Made by a program: the position numbers and the translations under genes | The notes under the pieces: model-generated | The model's input: the letters and a program-made list of their open reading frames with translations, nothing else | Told to the model about the DNA's origin: nothing | The model's database searches: none | Assembly (NCBI GenBank): GCA_025360125.1 | Contig: JANYCU010000047.1 | Coordinates: forward strand, 1-64,000 | Direction: 5' to 3' | Length of the DNA: 64,000 bases | From: Armatimonadota bacterium | GTDB taxonomy: Bacteria; Armatimonadota; Fimbriimonadia; Fimbriimonadales; Fimbriimonadaceae | Part shown: positions 1,862 through 39,687 of the stretch, piece by piece | Numbering within the stretch: the first letter of the stretch is position 1 | Layout: the number at the start of each line of letters is the position of its first letter

Positions 1862-2884
1862 CTAGGGCCAGATTTGTACACTAACTGGGCCCATAGCTCT
1901 TTTGACATTCGAAAATTTGACCAATGACCTCAACTCAACACATAGATTTCTCTCCGAAAAAACCATTGAAGACAACATTTTATCAATCTCTTGGGGACTC
2001 TTTTTCTTCTCAAGCATTTCAAGTTCCATCGACCGTTTGTGCTCTTTGAGTTGGTCTTCAGACACGGAAGGACTAAAAAAATCGGTGAAGTGCATCGGAA
2101 GCTTGGCGGCAACTTTCTTCGCATACTCCCGAACTTCCTTAGCCAATTCAAATCTTTCGAGCCGAACGGCCTTGGCTGCAGTTTCCGCCAAAGACAGCGC
2201 CATCGACCCAGAATCACCAATTTCATCCGAATAATTAAAAAAATTGACCGAATAATCGCTAAATGGTCTTGGGAAATACTTAATATTTTCTCGATCAAGA
2301 ACGAATGGAATTTTCGTCGTATCGAGGTCATTTATTACGGACCACTTGTGCTTCAATCTAGAAATCTTTTCAGCATCTTCGTCGCTGAAACGCACCCCTG
2401 GTGAAACGCTAGAACGAAAGCCGGATCCCGAATAAGAAACCATTTGGAAAAACCCGAAGGTAAAGGTATTTTCTTTGATTTGATCATTTGAAATTTTCAC
2501 TCCTAATCGTGCTTCTATCAGATCCTTTAGCACAGCCTGACAAGTCGGGTCCAAATCTCGGCCATTAATTTCACATGTGGCATCAAGTTCGCCGTTGTCT
2601 CCGGCCTTCTCCAAAATCGCCCTTACAAGTCTAACACTAGCTTTTAGGTACTTTAGTGCGGATATTTCTGGCGAAACAACACAATAGTAACTCCCGTAAT
2701 CTCTGACGTAATATCCATTGTCAAGCCGCCTTACTTCCCCCGAGGCGTCCTTTTTATATGCTTTAAACAAAATAGACGACAAAGGTGAAGCTTTGTCTGG
2801 AAGTGCTGCGCATATTGGTTTGAAGTCAAACCCAGTTGGCTTGACTTGCTGAACCAACGATCCAGCAAGACAAATTGCGCTCAC
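1862..2884 (-). CDS. Hypothetical exported protein, AT-rich orphan
   Basis: A 340-residue protein of no family I recognise. The N-terminus (VSAICLAGSLVQQ) looks like the end of a signal peptide. The GTG start at 2884 probably truncates it, because hydrophobic codons (V-I-V-L) continue in frame upstream and an AGGAG sits at about 2901-2905, 16 nt before the GTG. The body is charged, with two segments rich in Lys/Glu near residues 160 and 270-310 that may be helical. Base composition is visibly more AT-rich than in neighbouring housekeeping genes, as for the next gene upstream, which suggests acquired DNA. Function unknown. Confidence 0.65.
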   Translation of the reverse strand: MSAICLAGSLVQQVKPTGFDFKPICAALPDKASPLSSILFKAYKKDASGEVRRLDNGYYVRDYGSYYCVVSPEISALKYLKASVRLVRAILEKAGDNGELDATCEINGRDLDPTCQAVLKDLIEARLGVKISNDQIKENTFTFGFFQMVSYSGSGFRSSVSPGVRFSDEDAEKISRLKHKWSVINDLDTTKIPFVLDRENIKYFPRPFSDYSVNFFNYSDEIGDSGSMALSLAETAAKAVRLERFELAKEVREYAKKVAAKLPMHFTDFFSPSVSEDQLKEHKRSMELEMLEKKKSPQEIDKMLSSMVFSERNLCVELRSLVKFSNVKRAMGPVSVQIWP

Positions 2885-2938
2885 TAAAACGATAACTTCG
2901 CTCCTCGTGGTACCGAACAGAAATTACCAAAATGCTTT

Positions 2939-3316
2939 CTAGTCTGGTGTCCAAGTTGCATTATAAATCCACATTGTTCGAGATCTGCCGAATATGGTAC
3001 TGGTCGAAAAACTTTGCCAGTCATTGTATCCGTTTTGGACTTTCAAAGTATAGGCGAAAGTTACAGGCTGCCCGCTCTCATTTGTGATGTGATCAGCATG
3101 TTGCCAATAAAATATGTGGTCCACGTACGTCCTCCATGGGCATGGCTCAGTTGATCCTTGTACCGTATCCGTCGACAAGAAATTTTCGGTTCCTCCCGGT
3201 TGGATTGTAACGTGGTGCGTAGTCGTGACTGGCGCAGGAAAAGCGTCTCGAATTTCCCGGTAATCATCGAAATAAAGCTTGCCTAGTGAGAGTGACGATA
3301 GAACAATTCCGATCAT
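2939..3316 (-). CDS. Hypothetical small exported protein
   Basis: A 125-residue protein with a short hydrophobic N-terminus (MIGIVLSSLSLG) that may be a weak signal sequence. It is rich in Thr, Ser, Tyr and Trp towards the C-terminus, consistent with a small beta-rich extracellular protein, but no motif is recognised. The ATG at 3316 has no strong ribosome-binding site. It precedes the other AT-rich orphan (1862-2884) on the same strand with a 54-nt gap, so the two may be cotranscribed. No function can be assigned. Confidence 0.5.
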   Translation of the reverse strand: MIGIVLSSLSLGKLYFDDYREIRDAFPAPVTTTHHVTIQPGGTENFLSTDTVQGSTEPCPWRTYVDHIFYWQHADHITNESGQPVTFAYTLKVQNGYNDWQSFSTSTIFGRSRTMWIYNATWTPD

Positions 3317-3550
3317 AGTGCGATCTTACCCACTACTTTTTTTTCTTTGTCAATGGTTTCTGATTAAATTTCTATCTTTTCGAAAAAATGCTAGCAGTGA
3401 GTGTCAAAGAGCAAATTGTAGAGCTATATTTGGCCTTAAACGATAATTGGAGTTGGGTGAAGAACTCCACTACCAGGGGAGTAAGGTGGTCATTGCCTTT
3501 GCTAAGCTATCGAAGAAACCTGCTATTCTTACGGATATGGCACGCGAAAA

Positions 3551-3556
3551 AGGAGG
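3551..3556 (+). promoter_or_regulatory. Strong Shine-Dalgarno AGGAGG fixing the MlaE start
   Basis: AGGAGG lies 4 nt before ATG 3561. It supports this start over the upstream in-frame starts at 3447 or earlier. Confidence 0.85.
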
Positions 3557-3560
3557 GTTT

Positions 3561-4316
3561 ATGGCAAACGTTGTTCGTCCATTTGACTCCTTTTTCGTGT
3601 TCGTCGGCGAGCTGTTCATGTTGCTTACCGACGCATTTAGGCGGCTTGTGTCAAGCCGATTTGAGGCAAAGGAGACCCTCAGTCAGATGGCTTTTGTTGG
3701 CGTCAACTCAATTCCGATTGTCTTGTTGACTGGCTTCTTCAGCGGGGCGGTCTTGAGTCTCTATATCAGCACGTTCTTGTTGAAGTACGGCGCGACGGCA
3801 TTTGTCGGGGCGACGGTTTCGCTTTCGATGACCCGTGAGATTGGTCCGGTATTAGCAGGCATCATGGTTTCTGCTCGATGCGGATCTGCGATGGCCGCGC
3901 AGATTGGAACGATGGCGGTCACGGAGCAGATTGATGCTCTGAAGATGCTAAGCGTTCACCCCACCAATTACTTAGTCGTGCCGCGAATCGTTGCTTCGGT
4001 CCTCATGATGCCGATTTTGGCTTTGACTTGCGTTTGGGCGGGTTCGCTTGGCGGGTGGCTCGTTGCGGTTCAGGAAGGGGTTCCGGGTGGGGCCTATATT
4101 AATTCTGTCAGTCAATATACGCAACCATCCGACATCCTTGGTGGCTTGTACAAGGCTCCAGTTTTCGGCTTGATCGTGGCGCTGGTTGCCTGTCAGCAAG
4201 GCATGCGAACGAAAAATGGCGCGGTTGGCGTCGGCCAGGCAACTACGAACACAGTTGTCATCAGCATGGTTCTGGTCTATGTTGCTAACTTTGTTCTCGC
4301 AAGACTGATGAGCTAG
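3561..4316 (+). CDS. MlaE-family ABC transporter permease
   Basis: A 251-residue integral membrane protein of the MlaE/YrbE permease family, which forms the membrane core of ABC systems moving phospholipids or other lipids between inner and outer membranes. Family features are the central segment around GATAFVGATVSLSMTREIGPVLAGIMVSAR and the following AAQIGTMAVTEQIDALKML, where an amphipathic helix contacts the ATPase, plus about five hydrophobic segments. The start was set by the AGGAGG at 3551; this gives the usual family length of about 250-260 residues. No ATPase (MlaF) or MCE-domain partner is adjacent here; the M28 peptidase follows 16 nt downstream. Confidence 0.92.
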   Translation: MANVVRPFDSFFVFVGELFMLLTDAFRRLVSSRFEAKETLSQMAFVGVNSIPIVLLTGFFSGAVLSLYISTFLLKYGATAFVGATVSLSMTREIGPVLAGIMVSARCGSAMAAQIGTMAVTEQIDALKMLSVHPTNYLVVPRIVASVLMMPILALTCVWAGSLGGWLVAVQEGVPGGAYINSVSQYTQPSDILGGLYKAPVFGLIVALVACQQGMRTKNGAVGVGQATTNTVVISMVLVYVANFVLARLMS

Positions 4317-4332
4317 CGGATATAGTTATCGT

Positions 4333-5688
4333 ATGATTGCCCTTTCCTTATTGTTAGCGACAAGCTTTGCTAGCCCCGCCCAAAAAATTATTAACCTCAG
4401 CATCGCGGATAACCGAGTGATGCAGCACTTGCATGAACTTTGCTATGACGTTGGTGCACGCCCAACGGGCTCGCCAGAGTTACAAAAAGCGGAAAAGTGG
4501 GCCCTCGCCAAATTTAAGTCTTTCGGCTATAACAACGCCCACCTTGAGAAATGGGCTGACGTTCCGGTTGGTTTCCAACGGGGACCCAATAATTCGGCGA
4601 AGATGATTTCGCCAAGACGTGCCGAAATGCAGTTCTCCACCAACTGCTGGATGCCGGGGACCCAGGGTCCCTTGCAAGGAAGAGTCGTCATTGCACCTAA
4701 GTCGATGGAAGAATTGGTGTCGATGAAGTCCTCGCTGAACGGTGCTTGGGTTCTTTCGGATGCCCCGGTGAGCATGCGCGGCGCAAACATCGCGAAAGAG
4801 AGTGTTGACTTGATGAAGGCGATCGAAGCATCTGGCATCAATGGTGTGGTTTTTGGATCGAAAAGCGACCTTTTGCACACCCACGGAACGTGGAAAGACA
4901 AGACTTTTGAGAATCATCCCACGAATGTCCAGGTGACCGTTCGAAAAGCCGATTGGGACATGTTGGCGGAGAATGTGAGGGCGGGCAAAGACACGGTCGC
5001 GGAATTCAATATTGACAATCGATGGATCAAGGGACCGATCGAAGTCCACAACGTTGTTGCTGAAATCGTCGGCACTGAGTTCCCTGACCAAATCGTCGTC
5101 TTGGGTGGCCATTTGGATTCTTGGAACTCGCCAGGATCTCAGGGGGCGAACGACAACGGAACGGGTTCCAGCTCAACGCTCGAGGCTGCCCGCTTGATTC
5201 TGAAGAGCGGGGTCAAGCCGAAGCGAACGATTCGCTTTATTCTTTTCTCGGGAGAGGAGCAGGGTTTGCTTGGCTCAACCGAATACGTCAAGCAACATTT
5301 GGGCGAGCTGTATCGTATCAGTGCGTGTATCGTTGACGATGGCGGCTCGAATTACGAGTCGGATGCATCGGGATATGCGTCCTGGACCCCGTTCTTTCAG
5401 CCTTCGTTTGACTTGATGACTAAAGCGTTTCCTAAGATGCCGATGACGTTTCATCCATCGACTAACTACGATGCAAGTGGCGGCAGCGACCAAGCGTCGT
5501 TTTGGGCCAAGGGAGTTCCTTCCGTATTCATGGGTAAGGCAGGTACCCAGCAGTACCTTCATATTTGGCACACCCAATATGATCGCTACGAGGAAGCTGT
5601 GCCGGAATATCTGAAGCAAGTTGCGACCAGCATGGCCGTCGTCAGCTTTAACATTGCGAATGCCGATTCGATGATGCCAAGAAAGTGA
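4333..5688 (+). CDS. Secreted M28-family zinc aminopeptidase
   Basis: A 451-residue metallopeptidase beginning with a signal peptide (MIALSLLLATSFASPAQ). The M28 metal ligands and catalytic acid are in order: His in GGHLDSW (about residue 260), bridging Asp in GANDNGTG (about 273), the Glu pair in SGEEQG (about 306-307), Asp in VDDGGSN (about 334) and the distal His in LHIWHTQYD (about 412). The region before the catalytic domain (about residues 110-240) resembles the PA-domain insertion seen in many M28 enzymes. It probably trims N-terminal residues from peptides outside the cytoplasm. The stop overlaps the GTG start of ppc by 4 nt (GTGA), so the two are likely translationally coupled although their functions are unrelated. 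Confidence 0.93.
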   Translation: MIALSLLLATSFASPAQKIINLSIADNRVMQHLHELCYDVGARPTGSPELQKAEKWALAKFKSFGYNNAHLEKWADVPVGFQRGPNNSAKMISPRRAEMQFSTNCWMPGTQGPLQGRVVIAPKSMEELVSMKSSLNGAWVLSDAPVSMRGANIAKESVDLMKAIEASGINGVVFGSKSDLLHTHGTWKDKTFENHPTNVQVTVRKADWDMLAENVRAGKDTVAEFNIDNRWIKGPIEVHNVVAEIVGTEFPDQIVVLGGHLDSWNSPGSQGANDNGTGSSSTLEAARLILKSGVKPKRTIRFILFSGEEQGLLGSTEYVKQHLGELYRISACIVDDGGSNYESDASGYASWTPFFQPSFDLMTKAFPKMPMTFHPSTNYDASGGSDQASFWAKGVPSVFMGKAGTQQYLHIWHTQYDRYEEAVPEYLKQVATSMAVVSFNIANADSMMPRK

Positions 5689-33291: not shown

Positions 33292-33518
33292 CTTCAGAGA
33301 ATTATTCGCTTCGCTCAATCGACTTGTATAGTTGTGGAAGAGGCGGAGGACCACAATCGACTAACAGCCATCAGGACTGTGTGGGTGAGTACGGTCCCCG
33401 TTTCTTTGCTTAACTTTTAGAGTGCGAATAAAGAATCCAACACCACAGTAACGAGCTGCGAGTGCGAATCAGAATCACAAGTCAGCACCGAGCAGAGGAC
33501 CGCCTCAGGTACAAATCT
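33292..33518 (+). ncRNA. Candidate IS110 left end / bridge-RNA region
   Basis: This 227-nt stretch before the IS110 transposase has no gene. It holds a stem TTGTGG/CCACAA with a 13-nt loop near 33337-33361, GGAC/GTCC arms around a GTGTGGGTGAGTACG loop near 33374-33396, two copies of AATCGACT, and a direct repeat starting GAGTGCGAAT at 33420 and 33460. IS110-group elements encode a bridge RNA in this position, so this is its likely location, but I have not matched a consensus structure and the element is decayed. Confidence 0.35.
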
Positions 33519-34103
33519 ATGATATCACTTGGAGCCGACGTTGCTAAAGACAGCATCGTCATTTTTGATGGAAACAGCACATTCACCGTTGCGAACAAAC
33601 CAACTGAACTGAGGAAGTTCCTCGTCCAGCATCCAGGAGCTAGATTGGCAGTTGAGCCAACGGGTGGGATGCAGGACCTCATCTGCCAGATTGCCTTCAA
33701 GCTTGGGATGACGGTCTACGTCATCCAGTCTTCTTGGATCCGCTCTCACCGAAGAGGCATCAAACCACGAGGAAAGACCGACAAGATCGATGCCCAGACA
33801 ATCCAGGACTTTCTGGTCGAGAGAGCCGACCATCTTCATATCTGGAGACCGCTTCCAAAGTTGCTGGCTGAGCTCAGATTGACTCTGAGACAACGCCAAG
33901 GTCTTGCCAAAGACCTCTCCAGGATGAGACAACGCTACCGAGCATTAAAGCTTGCAAAAGCTCATCTAGAGGCCCTTTTGAAGCCATTACATGACCTCAT
34001 CCAGATGAAAGACGACCGGCTCAAAGAACTGCTCGAAGATATTCCAAACTTAGCATCGCTGGAGTTGGAATCCTCACGGCCGGCGCAGCGCTCTGTTCGC
34101 TAG
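33519..34103 (+). pseudogene. IS110 transposase, N-terminal DEDD part (frameshifted)
   Basis: From ATG 33519 the frame encodes the RuvC-like DEDD domain: first Asp in GADVAKDSI, Glu in LAVEPTGG, and the pair in KTDKIDAQTIQ, followed by a helical segment (LRQRQGLAKDLSRMRQRY). It reaches LLEDIPNLAS, where the family's IPGIG helix-hairpin-helix begins, and then runs into an unrelated frame and a stop. The proper continuation is in the -1 frame at about 34058. Confidence 0.85.
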
Positions 34104-34873: not shown

Positions 34874-35242
34874 ATGAAGTCAAGAGCCAATGATGGACCG
34901 AAGATTGACATGCACTTTTGGCGAAAGAGCTTAAATTTTCTTGGAATGCTATACGCCATTGGAGTTTGTGCCTGGATTGGAATTCAAAGTTGGAACCTTT
35001 GGTATCGAGAGGAAGTTAGGCTTCTACTAATCTCCCGACAATCACAACAGCAAGATCTATCTTTAATTACGCTGGGCCAAGAAAGTTCTGGCGGACACTT
35101 CACATATTGTCCAGCAACTTCTCGCTTTGGGCGCGACATGCTCGCTCAAGTCAAGGCACCGGCGTCGGCGCCTCTGGTCCTAATTATTGATCCGCTTACT
35201 CGGGCTGGGGAGGGGGGGGGGCAGATCCACAGTCGTCACTGA
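34874..35242 (+). CDS. N-terminal fragment of VKOR/thioredoxin fusion protein (frameshifted at G10)
   Basis: A 122-residue frame with one membrane segment (LNFLGMLYAIGVCAWIGIQSW) and then a soluble part containing APLVLIIDP. It ends just past a run of ten G (35212-35221) in a low-complexity tail (GEGGGQIHSRH). With nine or twelve G the frame would join the next ORF and give one protein of about 442 residues, with the join reading AGEGGGRSTVVTDTAKI. The soluble part then looks like a small extracytoplasmic domain placed before the membrane domain. Confidence 0.7.
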   Translation: MKSRANDGPKIDMHFWRKSLNFLGMLYAIGVCAWIGIQSWNLWYREEVRLLLISRQSQQQDLSLITLGQESSGGHFTYCPATSRFGRDMLAQVKAPASAPLVLIIDPLTRAGEGGGQIHSRH

Positions 35243-36203
35243 CACAGCAAAGATTAAGCAGGAAATCTTGAGCCTAGTTGCTGGTAAAGCCCAACCGCAA
35301 AGTAAACTTCTAATCTTCGGCGTCCCGATCCTTGTGCTATGGCTGGGACTACTACTTCGAGCACCGAGGGTTGCCCCGATATTATTCGCAATATCAGTTG
35401 CAGCAATGTCAGCGAAGGTAACAACTCTATGTGTTGTGTGCGGTGAGGGCACCGGAATACCATTTTACGCGTCAATAGTAGCTTTGGTTTTAGGTTCGAT
35501 AGCACTTACCATAACTCAGATCGCTGCGAACCCGATAGGAATGCATTGCGCTCGAAGTCTTGCCCTTGTCCTGGCAATTGGGCAACTCGCCTTGCTCCTG
35601 ACTTATCCGACGAGTTCCTGCAATGCATGCATTGTAGCTTGGCTGGCGATTGGGCCATTGGCGATATCTTATAGCTGGGCCAATGATATCGCAGCAAAAT
35701 GGTCTGGTACCGCGATGAGGGTACTAATGGTCGCTTTGGCCATAGCTACCTTTTTTGCCTTAACAAACTTGTCTGGAAGCAGAGGCAATGGAACTTCCCT
35801 GAAATCAGATTCTCCAAGAAAGCACTTCTCGTCATTTGTCGGATCAAATGCAACTACTGGGCCATTAAAACTAATTGAAGACGATCAACATTCCGCCAAA
35901 CTTATTTGCCTTTCCCGTAACACGTGTGTACCATGCCAGGAAGCAAAAACATACTTTTCTGCGCTTCCAAATTTTCACATTCATTTTGTTGAGGTCCTAC
36001 CCCGGGGTTCGATGCAGAGGGTCGATTCGTCGCAATTTGTACCTTCACCTGATATTAGTATTCAAACCCCAACCTTCCTCGTTGTTGGGTCGGATGGAAT
36101 AATCTACAGTCAGACGAGCGGATGGTCAAATGAAGCGGATTGGAAGAAGGCGATTACACAAACACTAACGGATTCCCTGCAAATTGCAGAGATAGGAAAA
36201 TAG
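35187..36203 (+). CDS. VKOR-like membrane oxidoreductase fused to a thioredoxin-like domain (main fragment)
   Basis: This frame continues the protein begun at 34874 after the G10 tract; its nominal start in the G-rich stretch is probably artificial. It has several hydrophobic segments. Cysteine pairs CVVC, followed by GTGIPFYASIVALVLG, and SCNAC at the head of a later helix match the vitamin-K-epoxide-reductase arrangement, in which one pair meets the quinone and the other relays electrons. The C-terminal 110 residues form a thioredoxin-like domain with CVPC and TPTFLVVGSDG (cis-Pro). The fused protein would make disulfides outside the membrane. The cysteine-rich peptide gene begins 2 nt downstream. 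Confidence 0.75.
   Translation: MIRLLGLGRGGGRSTVVTDTAKIKQEILSLVAGKAQPQSKLLIFGVPILVLWLGLLLRAPRVAPILFAISVAAMSAKVTTLCVVCGEGTGIPFYASIVALVLGSIALTITQIAANPIGMHCARSLALVLAIGQLALLLTYPTSSCNACIVAWLAIGPLAISYSWANDIAAKWSGTAMRVLMVALAIATFFALTNLSGSRGNGTSLKSDSPRKHFSSFVGSNATTGPLKLIEDDQHSAKLICLSRNTCVPCQEAKTYFSALPNFHIHFVEVLPRGSMQRVDSSQFVPSPDISIQTPTFLVVGSDGIIYSQTSGWSNEADWKKAITQTLTDSLQIAEIGK
35212..35221 (+). repeat. Poly-G tract (G10) interrupting the VKOR/thioredoxin gene
   Basis: Ten consecutive G, preceded by GGGGA. It is the exact point where the reading frame is lost, and loss of one G would restore it. This is either a slipped-strand phase-variation site or a homopolymer miscount. Confidence 0.9.
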
Positions 36204-36204
36204 A

Positions 36205-36510
36205 ATGAAAAAACTCATGATTGTTATGGCAACCCTGGCAACGGTAGCTAGTTTTGCAACTTCGCCATGTTCTGGTGGGGACTTTGGTGGTAGACGGGCA
36301 ACCCAACATTGCGTTGATGAGACCGACGACTGTAGCACAACGCACCTACTTTACTGGGAACAAGCTTCTTGTGACTGGTGGTGCTGCCCAACAGGCGTTT
36401 ACATGGTCAATAACTGCGGGACCTTTGCCCCCACCGGGCAGTGCTGTGATCCATCAGATACTGGTCTATACCACATGGTTAGCCCGAACCCACTTTCTTG
36501 TGCCCCTTAG
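36205..36510 (+). CDS. Secreted cysteine-rich peptide (10 Cys)
   Basis: A 101-residue precursor with a signal peptide (MKKLMIVMATLATVASFA) and a mature part of about 80 residues containing ten cysteines, including the doublets WWCCP and QCCDP. The even number and spacing suggest a compact disulfide-bonded protein. It matches no family I know. It starts 2 nt after the disulfide-forming VKOR/thioredoxin gene and precedes a membrane protein and a pilin-like protein, so it is the likely substrate of the first gene. A structural, adhesive or bacteriocin-like role are all possible; none is shown by the sequence. Confidence 0.72.
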   Translation: MKKLMIVMATLATVASFATSPCSGGDFGGRRATQHCVDETDDCSTTHLLYWEQASCDWWCCPTGVYMVNNCGTFAPTGQCCDPSDTGLYHMVSPNPLSCAP

Positions 36511-36522
36511 TAAAGGTAGTTG

Positions 36523-37014
36523 ATGAAAAGCAAGGTGCTCAACTCAATTTTGCAATCTGCCGCTTGTGCCGCAAGCGTACTTGTGTGCGCAATGGTTTGC
36601 AACACAGTGTTTAGCACCTTGCTTCGGCTCCTGGGCGTATTGGGCCATAATCGGCTCAGGGGCGACATACCCCATTCGATCTTCGAACAATATTTGATTA
36701 CATTTTGGTATGATTTGTTGGATTCGAGAGAATTCGGATTTCTAGTCACTCCAATTATTTGGCTGATATTCATGTTCTTGAACCGGTCATTCAAGTTGTA
36801 TAGAATTTTGAGTTGGGTTGTTGTAAGCATCGTTGCCTATCAATTCATGATCCCTGGCGGTTTGCCCGCTTTGCTGACAAGAAAGCATGGTGGATATTGG
36901 ATTTTGATTTTTAATGGATTGGCATGCGGGCTACTGTTTCCAAAAGTTGAACAATTTTTGACATACTTCTTCAAGACTTTAAACCAAACAAGATTGTTTG
37001 AGGAATCCAAATGA
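36523..37014 (+). CDS. Hypothetical multi-pass membrane protein
   Basis: A 163-residue protein with about four hydrophobic segments (around residues 12-38, 70-90, 97-113 and 125-145) and no recognised family. It has two cysteines in its first helix (AACAASVLVCAMVC region) that could sit close to the periplasmic face. ATG 36523 was chosen over TTG 36520. It lies 12 nt after the cysteine-rich peptide gene and overlaps the pilin-like gene by 4 nt, so it belongs to the cassette; a role in exporting or anchoring its neighbours is only a guess. Confidence 0.65.
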   Translation: MKSKVLNSILQSAACAASVLVCAMVCNTVFSTLLRLLGVLGHNRLRGDIPHSIFEQYLITFWYDLLDSREFGFLVTPIIWLIFMFLNRSFKLYRILSWVVVSIVAYQFMIPGGLPALLTRKHGGYWILIFNGLACGLLFPKVEQFLTYFFKTLNQTRLFEESK

Positions 37015-37625
37015 AAAACAAAGGCATAACACTGCTTGAAATAATGATCGTGATTGTGATCATATCGATTCTGTCTGCACAACTTTTCCCGTTAATTGGC
37101 CAAGCGAAGAAGCGAGCCAAGGCAGTTACTGATATTACTAACATGAGGCAACTTTATGCTGCTGTTTGTATGTATGAATCCGATTCAGATGACAGGTCGC
37201 CAGCCTTTTTACCTCTGACGGCTGGTTACACTGGTAGCGTGGAAGTGTTTAAATCGATTCTCGACCCCAGAAAGCAGAACTCGACTAAGCAAGGATGGAA
37301 TTCGCCCCCTTGTGCTCCTCCAAATACCTTTGACCGAAGTTATTATCGCATTAGCTATCCATATTTACGGTCATTTAAGGATGATGATGAATCTAGTTAC
37401 ATAGTATTACGTCAGGATGCAAAAGTGGGAATGCTCGCCTCCCCTTGGGTTGGAGATATATCTCAATGGATGGGTAATTCGTACGACGACTCTGAGTATG
37501 GGCCAGTAATGCGAGGGGCTATCTTTAGGACAAACATGGACGGATCCCTTTATGTCTTGCCAAAGAGAAAATTTGAAGATTGTCTGTGCGCTTGTAAAGA
37601 GGATTTATTTTCTACTTCGAAGTAG
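37011..37625 (+). CDS. Type IV pilin-like protein
   Basis: A 204-residue protein with a prepilin signal: KNKG then ITLLEIMIVIVIISILSAQ, that is a basic leader, Gly at the cleavage point, Glu5 and a long hydrophobic helix, with Ile in place of the usual Phe at +1. The rest resembles the DUF1559/H-X9-DG-type pseudopilins of planctomycetes and related phyla (TDITNMRQLYAAVCMYESDSDDRSP, FRTNMDGSLYVLP). A late CLCACKED adds three cysteines, which fits the disulfide theme of the cassette. Prepilin peptidase and assembly genes are not in the window. Confidence 0.82.
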   Translation: MKNKGITLLEIMIVIVIISILSAQLFPLIGQAKKRAKAVTDITNMRQLYAAVCMYESDSDDRSPAFLPLTAGYTGSVEVFKSILDPRKQNSTKQGWNSPPCAPPNTFDRSYYRISYPYLRSFKDDDESSYIVLRQDAKVGMLASPWVGDISQWMGNSYDDSEYGPVMRGAIFRTNMDGSLYVLPKRKFEDCLCACKEDLFSTSK

Positions 37626-37767: not shown

Positions 37768-39687
37768 ATGGTCTTAGCCACTTTCGCTTTTGGCTTGCAA
37801 ATGATGTTGCGCCCGGCACCGATTTTCGCCGATCATATGGTGCTACCCCGAGACATGTCGGTGCCCGTATTTGGCCTCGGAATCCCCGGCAAAACCGTTG
37901 AGGTTCAATTTGAAGGCTTTCGATCGCAAACGGTTGTGAAACCCGAAGGGGTTTGGCGCCTTAAGCTCCCACGCCACGCGGCTGGCGGTCCGTATGTGAT
38001 GCGCATCAAGTCCGCAGGTCAAGAAACCGTTATTTCGGATATCCAAATGGGAGACGTTTGGCTTTTGAGCGGGCAAAGCAATATCGAGTGGCCCGTTTCG
38101 CGGAGCAAAGAAGTCGACAAAATGCGAGCCGAAGTTGACCCAAACATTCGTCTTTTTCGGGTGGTGCGGCAGAGCACCGAGGCTCCGGTTCGCGAGATTC
38201 GAGGCAACTGGACGGTTGGGTCGAAGCAATCGGTCGGAAACTGGTCGGGAATTGGCCTTGCCTTTGCCATCGAATTGCGCAAACAAGCCAAAGTGCCAAT
38301 CGGCCTGATTCAGGCCACATGGGGCGGAACTCGGATTGAAGCTTGGATGAGCGAGAAATCGCTTGAATCGGACAAGCGGCTGAAACCGCTGATGGACGAA
38401 TATTTGGGAAATCTTTCTGGCTTTCAGGTCCGTTTGGATAAATGGCAGGCAGAAGCCAACGTTTGGGATGCCCTCAACGAGAAGAAGGACCCGGGCAATG
38501 CGGGATTCGACAAGGGTTGGCATAAGCCGGAATTTAACGACAAAGATTGGGCCGACATGTCGCTTCCCGAGCCCTGGGAACAGGACGAGTCGAAGGATGT
38601 TGACGGGGCTAGTTGGTACCGATATCACTTCCAGCTTCCGGTTGATTGGAAAGGCAAAGGCTTGCGGATTGAGCTTGGGTTCGTTGGCAACGACGACATG
38701 ACCTACATCAACGGCCTCAAAATTGGCGGAGCGTTTGGTAAAGACAAACCACGGGCGTATTACGTTGGCCCGGGCGTGGTTCACGAGGGAGAAAACGTCA
38801 TCGCGGTTCGAGTTTGGAATCGTTCGGGCGAGGGCGGAATCCTTGGTCCCAACCTACGCCTTGGTCCGGTGGATGGCGGAGCCTACATGGACCTTGCTAC
38901 GACTTGGAAAACGAAGAACGAATTGGTGATTGAGCCACCGATCGACGAAGCGAAAAAACGTCCTTTGCGTCCGATGGGGCCGGGTGACCGCAACGCGCCA
39001 GCAGGGGCTTTTTCCGGCATGATTTCTCCCTTGATTCCGTTTGGGATTAAGGGGATTGTTTGGTACCAAGGCGAAGGCAATGTTGGCCAAGCCGAAGAGT
39101 ATCGGACCGCTTTTCCAACTTTGATCAAGGATTGGCGAGAGCGATGGAAGAACCCGGAGCTTCCCTTCTTTTTCGTTCAACTTCCGGGCTTTGCCCGGGC
39201 GGTTGAGCCCAAGAAATCCGAGTGGGCCGAGATGCGGGAGGCTCAGTTATCGGGACTGAATTTGCCGTACGTTAGCATGGTTGTCAGTATTGATCAGCAG
39301 GATCCAGATACGATTCACCCGATCAAGAAGTATGAGATTGGCAAGCGCCTGGCGGGCCTCGCGGCGGCGCAAGTTTACGAGCGCGGAAATTACGCGTTTA
39401 GCCCGATTATTAGCTCGATCAAATTAAGCGGTCCAACGGCTCGGATTGTTTTCCAGAATGCTTATCGGGGCTTGAAGACATCGGATGGCGGTCCCGTTAG
39501 GGGGTTCGAAGTCATGGACTCGGGCGGGGGTTGGCATGCGGCACAAGTGGCGATTTTGACCCCCTCAGTCACGGTTTCGGCGGTCGGGATTGGCGTGATC
39601 AAGGGCGTCCGGTACTGCTGGGCAGACAACCCGAGCGGAAACCTCGTCAACAGCGCGGGGCTACCGGCAACGCCGTTTATGCGGTAG
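37768..39687 (+). CDS. Sialate O-acetylesterase-like SGNH hydrolase
   Basis: A 639-residue exported enzyme (short hydrophobic start MVLATFAFGLQMML) of the family that removes O-acetyl groups from sialic acids and other sugars. The catalytic serine is in LLSGQSNIEWPV (about residue 103), the GxND-like block is IQATWGGTRIEAW, and Asp/His are in DPDTIHPIKKYEIG (about 512-525). Residues about 250-370 form an inserted beta-sandwich with WYRYHFQLP and VWNRSGEGGILGP, usual in long bacterial members. Its stop directly abuts that of the convergent PhoPQ-related gene. Confidence 0.92.
   Translation: MVLATFAFGLQMMLRPAPIFADHMVLPRDMSVPVFGLGIPGKTVEVQFEGFRSQTVVKPEGVWRLKLPRHAAGGPYVMRIKSAGQETVISDIQMGDVWLLSGQSNIEWPVSRSKEVDKMRAEVDPNIRLFRVVRQSTEAPVREIRGNWTVGSKQSVGNWSGIGLAFAIELRKQAKVPIGLIQATWGGTRIEAWMSEKSLESDKRLKPLMDEYLGNLSGFQVRLDKWQAEANVWDALNEKKDPGNAGFDKGWHKPEFNDKDWADMSLPEPWEQDESKDVDGASWYRYHFQLPVDWKGKGLRIELGFVGNDDMTYINGLKIGGAFGKDKPRAYYVGPGVVHEGENVIAVRVWNRSGEGGILGPNLRLGPVDGGAYMDLATTWKTKNELVIEPPIDEAKKRPLRPMGPGDRNAPAGAFSGMISPLIPFGIKGIVWYQGEGNVGQAEEYRTAFPTLIKDWRERWKNPELPFFFVQLPGFARAVEPKKSEWAEMREAQLSGLNLPYVSMVVSIDQQDPDTIHPIKKYEIGKRLAGLAAAQVYERGNYAFSPIISSIKLSGPTARIVFQNAYRGLKTSDGGPVRGFEVMDSGGGWHAAQVAILTPSVTVSAVGIGVIKGVRYCWADNPSGNLVNSAGLPATPFMR

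Follow-up and report, generated by a model that had tools for sequence, protein, structure and literature searches.

The protein encoded at positions 36205-36510 of the window, by which we mean the whole 64,000-nucleotide stretch of Armatimonadota DNA analysed, represents a previously undescribed family of predicted secreted proteins, and its gene recurs in a cassette with genes for a membrane thiol-disulfide oxidoreductase, a small multi-transmembrane (multi-TM) protein, and a pilin-like protein. From the sequence, the conservation of the cysteines, the synteny, and the motifs, we infer disulfides, a direction of electron flow, a complex with the pilin-like protein, and a surface role. The complete account, a Sec-exported disulfide miniprotein with its own oxidase and a pilin-linked function at the surface, is in our judgement evenly balanced between right and wrong. 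That the peptide is an exported multi-disulfide miniprotein oxidised by the adjacent enzyme is highly probable; that it acts with the pilin-like partner at the cell surface is close to an even call. The features of the cassette are these:

34874-36203, + strand: gene for a membrane thiol-disulfide oxidoreductase with a VKOR-like membrane part and a C-terminal thioredoxin-like domain (ORFs 34874-35242 and 35187-36203; aligned relatives)
35212-35221, + strand: G10 tract splitting the enzyme frame, one of two G/C runs of at least 10 in the 4.13-Mb genome
35430-35441, + strand: first invariant CxxC of the enzyme (C82-C85 of ORF 35187-36203), flanked by predicted membrane helices
35619-35630, + strand: second invariant CxxC (C145-C148), opening a predicted membrane helix
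35925-35936, + strand: third invariant CxxC (C247-C250), the thioredoxin-like active site by alignment
36069-36071, + strand: invariant Pro of the thioredoxin-like domain, by alignment
36205-36510, + strand: ten-cysteine secreted protein, the subject of this study (ORF with ATG start, 101 aa; signal-like segment at about residues 1-19)
36523-37014, + strand: small multi-TM protein of no family, beginning 12 nt past the peptide gene and overlapping the pilin-like gene by 4 nt
37011-37625, + strand: pilin-like protein of 204 aa with an N-terminal methylation motif (PF07963, E 2.5e-6; TIGR02532 over cut-off)

The peptide opens with an MKK-type, lysine-rich start and a hydrophobic stretch running to about residue 19, and all ten cysteines lie downstream of it (C22, C36, C43, C56, C60, C61, C71, C80, C81, and C99). 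A preliminary description of this DNA had reported ten cysteines in a mature region of about 80 residues, with two CC doublets and a WWCC segment, which the ORF sequence confirms; it had placed the oxidoreductase 2 nt upstream, but only 1 nt separates the end of ORF 35187-36203 from the ATG of the peptide. Cysteine makes up 1.04% of residues in the 41 non-overlapping ORFs of at least 200 aa in the 64-kb window, and against this background ten cysteines in 84 residues have a binomial P of 2e-8. The most that any 83-residue stretch holds elsewhere in those 41 long ORFs is six, and among the 304 window ORFs of at least 60 aa, the peptide alone reaches nine or more. The signal peptide, on whose presence in orthologues the earlier reading had been staked, does recur: in a hydropathy scan, the N-terminal segment was above the cut-off in 12 of the 15 peptides listed, the three below it being those of G038, whose start codon is ambiguous, G064, and G120. 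The AlphaFold model of the peptide is of low confidence (pLDDT 55) and names no fold.

The peptide had no match in Pfam, NCBIfam, or PADLOC, and a profile of seven peptides found none among PDB sequences; PHROGs gave one weak match, phrog_24063 (E 0.028), of unknown function. Membership of a known cysteine-rich family was rejected because of this lack of profile or PDB-sequence matches, and the initial statement that no recognised family could be named thus stands for these collections. The suggested search for paralogues turned up no second copy in the peptide's own genome (4.13 Mb, 58 contigs). In the open-licence PMC literature, we found nothing on Armatimonadota with cysteine-rich proteins, with phase variation, or with cysteine and pilin together, and nothing linking a pseudopilin to an operon with a secreted cysteine-rich protein or a thioredoxin, so that a description elsewhere is possible. 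For Armatimonadetes with disulfides and pili, the same literature returned a single paper, PMC4072686.

Relatives were sought with the peptide and with the enzyme in 113 genomes of the order and with peptide profiles and an enzyme profile in 291 genomes of the phylum; in the former search, peptide matches of E >0.001 were counted only if the enzyme adjoined. Among the 291 genomes of this one phylum, 15 hold 20 complete peptides. Ten have a single one (the window genome, G000, together with G019, G020, G021, G038, G063, G064, G120, G151, and G163), and five have a pair belonging to two different cassettes (G009, G014, G030, G032, and G111). G153 and G162 add partial copies cut by contig ends, which makes 17 genomes in total. 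Some records carry two handles (G163 is L103, and contig 19 of G009 is L101), and the second G030 copy was taken from L098. Peptide identity falls to about 20% between relatives, and a scan of contigs with the window peptide alone gave no confirmed relative. Scanning contigs with a motif common to the pilin-like proteins of one branch confirmed 11 loci out of 19 pattern matches, mostly in Armatimonadota MAGs (Armatimonadetes, Fimbriimonas, Chthonomonas, and Chthonomonadaceae). The type-2 pilin motif gave 40 pattern matches in viral contigs, none of them confirmed, and the cassette enzyme had no match in plasmids. A peptide-profile match at E 0.008 in G180, from a distant family, showed no cassette on reading and was dropped.

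Cysteines are the only invariant residues among the first seven relatives. Counting mature cysteines only, which leaves out those in the signal segment (one each in G151 and G032a, for example) and in G038 starts at the first cysteine past the hydrophobic stretch, 17 of the 20 complete relatives have 10, two have 12, and one has 9. The twelve-cysteine versions are the two peptides of G111; the nine-cysteine version is the G014a peptide, in which an in-frame stop falls just ahead of the usual site of the tenth. The number is therefore even in 19 of 20, for which a fair coin, with relatedness ignored, gives P 2e-5 for at least 19. The first branch follows the pattern C-C-C-C-x3-CC-C-CC-C. Peptides of the second branch are without the cysteine preceding the first doublet (the fourth, in C-x3-CC) and have one near the C-terminus, so that the total is still ten; this swap of a loss for a gain suggests that the lost and gained cysteines would share one partner. 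A single doublet with the total still at ten is seen in both copies of G030 and in one of those of G032. The two branches are joined by hhalign (prob 91, P 1.1e-6) and by profile cross-matches, and no histidine or CxxC pattern is conserved across them.

Since the enzyme, peptide, multi-TM, and pilin-like genes share a strand with short gaps, they look like one operon. The enzyme gene or a remnant of it is immediately upstream of the peptide in 20 of 20 complete loci, and a pilin-like gene is downstream in all 20, cut by the contig end in G151. Of the 19 loci whose flanks are long enough, 18 have the multi-TM gene, the exception being G064; the G009a copy, which the hydropathy scan did not flag, was counted from reading the sequence. 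In three loci (G021, G038, and G063), the multi-TM and pilin-like parts form a single open frame, the pilin-like part of G063 having no Pfam prepilin match. The multi-TM gene precedes or is fused to the pilin-like gene in first-branch loci and follows it in the second-branch loci checked. Because the partners recur around the peptide, we conclude that the cassette tends to evolve as a unit. The window's pilin-like protein carries the prepilin N-terminal methylation motif and hydrophobic helix of a type IV pilin or pseudopilin; the ten-cysteine peptide itself matches neither PF07963 nor TIGR02532. Pilin-like genes are abundant in the phylum, with 79 PulG-like genes in F. ginsengisoli according to PMC4072686, so adjacency to one is a weaker argument than it seems. 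There are also pilin-like relatives with no peptide or enzyme found upstream (L100, L106, and L107), and in L102 an enzyme remnant directly abuts the pilin-like gene with no peptide gene between.

In the window, the enzyme gene is read as two ORFs, 34874-35242 and 35187-36203, the first of which leaves frame at the G10 tract, a split that the preliminary description missed. Invariant in 14 aligned enzymes are the three CxxC pairs, one Gln, one Pro, and one Gly, and the Pro at 36069-36071 sits at what we take to be the cis-Pro position of the thioredoxin fold. The C-terminal part is a thioredoxin-like domain: it has the invariant CxxC and Pro, the best VIA-align match had Z 9.6 (118 residues, rmsd 3.4) and many thioredoxins scored close to 9, and a PDB profile match had E 0.0026. 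Some relatives' enzymes gave weak Glutaredoxin or Thioredoxin_2 Pfam matches, all below cut-off.

The membrane part is harder to place, as the AlphaFold model of the enzyme is of low confidence (pLDDT 57) and its fold in this part is not nameable. The VKOR profile PF07884 had no match at E<=1 in the two window ORFs or in the enzymes of 13 relatives, whereas a true VKOR in L088 scored E 1.4e-11. Comparison by hhalign with VKORs of the phylum, for which 13 of 20 VKOR loci were kept by motif, was weak and varied with the set: seven enzymes gave prob 34 and P 4e-4, 14 enzymes gave prob 4 and P 0.011, and a pilin control gave P 0.35. VKORs are membrane helix bundles with a CxxC at the start of a helix; in the low-confidence model of the cassette enzyme, an invariant CxxC would open a predicted helix. 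VKOR was absent among the structural matches listed, which is compatible with a VKOR fold all the same. In the VKOR family, a loop cysteine pair, spaced wider than CxxC, precedes the CxxC. The window genome's own VKOR (L161) has this wider pair, but the first pair of the cassette enzyme is a CxxC in 14 of 14 aligned sequences. VKOR-thioredoxin fusion proteins join a membrane helix core with cysteine pairs to a thioredoxin-like domain; the cassette enzyme differs from them in having two membrane CxxC motifs and usually an extra N-terminal region, and in having no Pfam VKOR match. Because the Pfam match is lacking and the profile comparison is weak and set-dependent, the enzyme is called VKOR-like in layout and is not classed as a VKOR. 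Since a canonical VKOR is encoded elsewhere in 15 of the 16 cassette genomes searched, the window genome included, the cassette enzyme is apparently an extra, dedicated copy. The VKOR of L088 mentioned above (3660-4637, - strand), which the cassette enzyme profile picked up at E 8.5e-8, has a C-terminal extension, with no cysteine-rich peptide seen alongside.

Based on these findings, we propose the following scheme. The miniprotein would be exported by Sec, and its ten cysteines would pair into about five disulfides outside the cytoplasm. The upstream membrane enzyme would be an oxidase dedicated to this client: electrons drawn from the peptide by the thioredoxin-like domain would move to the membrane CxxC pairs and from there probably to quinone, as in VKOR. 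That the peptide is the likely client of the adjoining oxidoreductase had been suggested at the outset, and its position downstream of a CxxC/CxxC/thioredoxin enzyme or remnant in 20 of 20 loci argues for this. Once locked by its disulfides, the miniprotein would act on the cell surface together with two other products of the operon, the pilin-like protein and the small membrane protein; its most likely role there is that of a binding or capping subunit associated with a pilus or pseudopilus. If the scheme is true, secreted multi-disulfide miniproteins that have an oxidase of their own and a pilin-like partner form a family spanning the phylum, a divergent VKOR-like enzyme gains a concrete client, and the cassette is a sign of an undescribed surface system in bacteria that have seen very little experimental work.

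This scheme recalls known systems. In the Bacillus competence pseudopilus, the thiol-disulfide oxidoreductases BdbDC form disulfides needed by ComGC and ComEC of a pseudopilin-based surface machine (PMC8262900); the likeness would be an oxidoreductase serving such a machine, but there the pilin subunit is itself a client, and that account has no separate ten-cysteine exported miniprotein. In Actinobacteria, VKOR re-oxidises the membrane oxidoreductase MdbA, which folds exported pilins (PMC9974433); as described there, this differs in being a general pathway with many clients, in its covalently linked pili, and in having no cysteine-rich miniprotein partner. The sublancin operon sunA-sunT-bdbA-sunS-bdbB encodes a small secreted cysteine peptide with the oxidoreductase that its maturation requires (PMC6391423); in that account, it differs in its two disulfides plus S-glucose, its exporter with leader peptidase, and its want of a pilin-like gene. 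As these sources present them, the first two systems support the surface reading and the sublancin operon with BdbB supports antagonism.

The preliminary description had left the choice between a structural surface protein and an antagonistic peptide. It missed the pilin-like and multi-TM partners, and because these are conserved we favour a surface component, although the choice is not settled. As an antagonist, the ten-cysteine protein would be a bacteriocin-like toxin, with the enzyme as maturase, the multi-TM protein as immunity protein, and the pilin-like protein as part of delivery. In keeping with this, the peptide is small, fast-diverging, and cysteine-rich, with a dedicated oxidoreductase like BdbB of the sublancin operon (PMC6391423); its spread is patchy (17/291 genomes), with two different cassettes in each of the five genomes named above; and the multi-TM protein is too diverged for a sequence search to find within the order, the 113 genomes giving, besides itself, weak matches only (best E 0.021). 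However, no ABC exporter or leader peptidase appears among the nearby window ORFs or in a Pfam scan of the neighbours, the signal is of ordinary Sec type, the pilin-like gene is there in 20 of 20 loci, and it would be odd for an immunity protein to be fused, as the multi-TM protein is, with the pilin-like part at three loci and to be absent from G064. To our knowledge, bacteriocin operons need no pilin-like gene. We consider an antagonist unlikely. Highly doubtful in our view is a metal- or cofactor-binding or redox-active periplasmic protein, whose cysteines would be partly reduced, with the enzyme reducing them in a DsbD/CcmG-like direction. CcmG/DsbE reductases are indeed among the nearest structural matches to the thioredoxin-like domain, but such matches are silent on direction, and the even cysteine number kept through losses and gains, the CC doublets, and the missing cross-branch histidine or CxxC pattern fit structural disulfides better.

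The cassette might also be a decaying selfish or horizontally moved element, functionless in the window genome, with the enzyme reduced to a pseudogene and the peptide surviving as a relic; this we find distinctly unlikely. With a G+C of 45.7%, where the window averages 51.5%, the cassette (34874-37625) ranks sixth-lowest of 613 sliding windows, and its G+C is below that of its flanks in 12 of 16 other loci, in one of these by a trivial margin. About 770 bases upstream, at 33462-34103, is the N-terminal part of an IS110-family transposase (PF01548, E 4e-15), short for a full transposase. Taken together with the patchy distribution, the low G+C and this transposase part suggest horizontal movement or repeated loss of the cassette. 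Of the 20 loci, 13 have the enzyme as a single open frame, and in the other 7 its frame is interrupted (G000, G009a, G014a, G064, G151, G111a, and G111b), so that the peptide may manage without the enzyme or the cassette may be decaying. On the other hand, the window has open frames for the peptide, the multi-TM protein, and the pilin-like protein, the ten cysteines are intact, and the enzyme break sits in a homopolymer, prone to slippage or mis-assembly; some or all of the breaks could be assembly faults of draft genomes. Against the 7 of 20 enzyme genes, 1 of 20 peptides has a broken frame, and as the enzyme gene is the longer, the excess of breaks in it over the other cassette genes is only suggestive.

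The breaks of G000 (G10) and G064 (G14) coincide with poly-G. The G163 enzyme has an in-frame G11 tract near its start, and at the same site an enzyme remnant at a contig end, L102, has a G24 (17-40). Runs of ten G or C amount to 177 overlapping 10-base matches in the 65 Mb of 16 genomes, from which at most 0.07 would be expected in 21 enzyme genes, against three observed (P 6e-5); omitting the window's tract, which prompted the test, leaves two (P 0.003). Because poly-G recurs in enzyme genes above expectation, slipped-strand phase variation of the enzyme gene is suggested. The one other tract of this kind in the window genome falls within a different open frame; such tracts are therefore not necessarily switches. 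We regard as quite improbable a phase-variable surface system, in which poly-G slippage in the oxidase gene toggles maturation of a pilus-displayed ten-cysteine binding or killing protein; if the poly-G switch were real, the contingency switch would be maturation chemistry, namely disulfide formation, and not a structural gene.

Directly past the window's cassette, positions 37768-39687 encode a protein that resembles sialate O-acetylesterases (PF03629, E 4.9e-25) and carries a glycosyl hydrolase 2 sugar-binding domain. In L093 (G014 contig 3), positions 2106-3870 hold a further truncated enzyme copy and, after it, an ORF that by eye looks like an integrase-type transposase; this enzyme copy is apparently interrupted by insertion. 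Downstream of the cassette in L061, an ORF at 3174-3914 has a repeated unit (SERNVADGPTVVRASAKQSALKQ...), spotted by eye.
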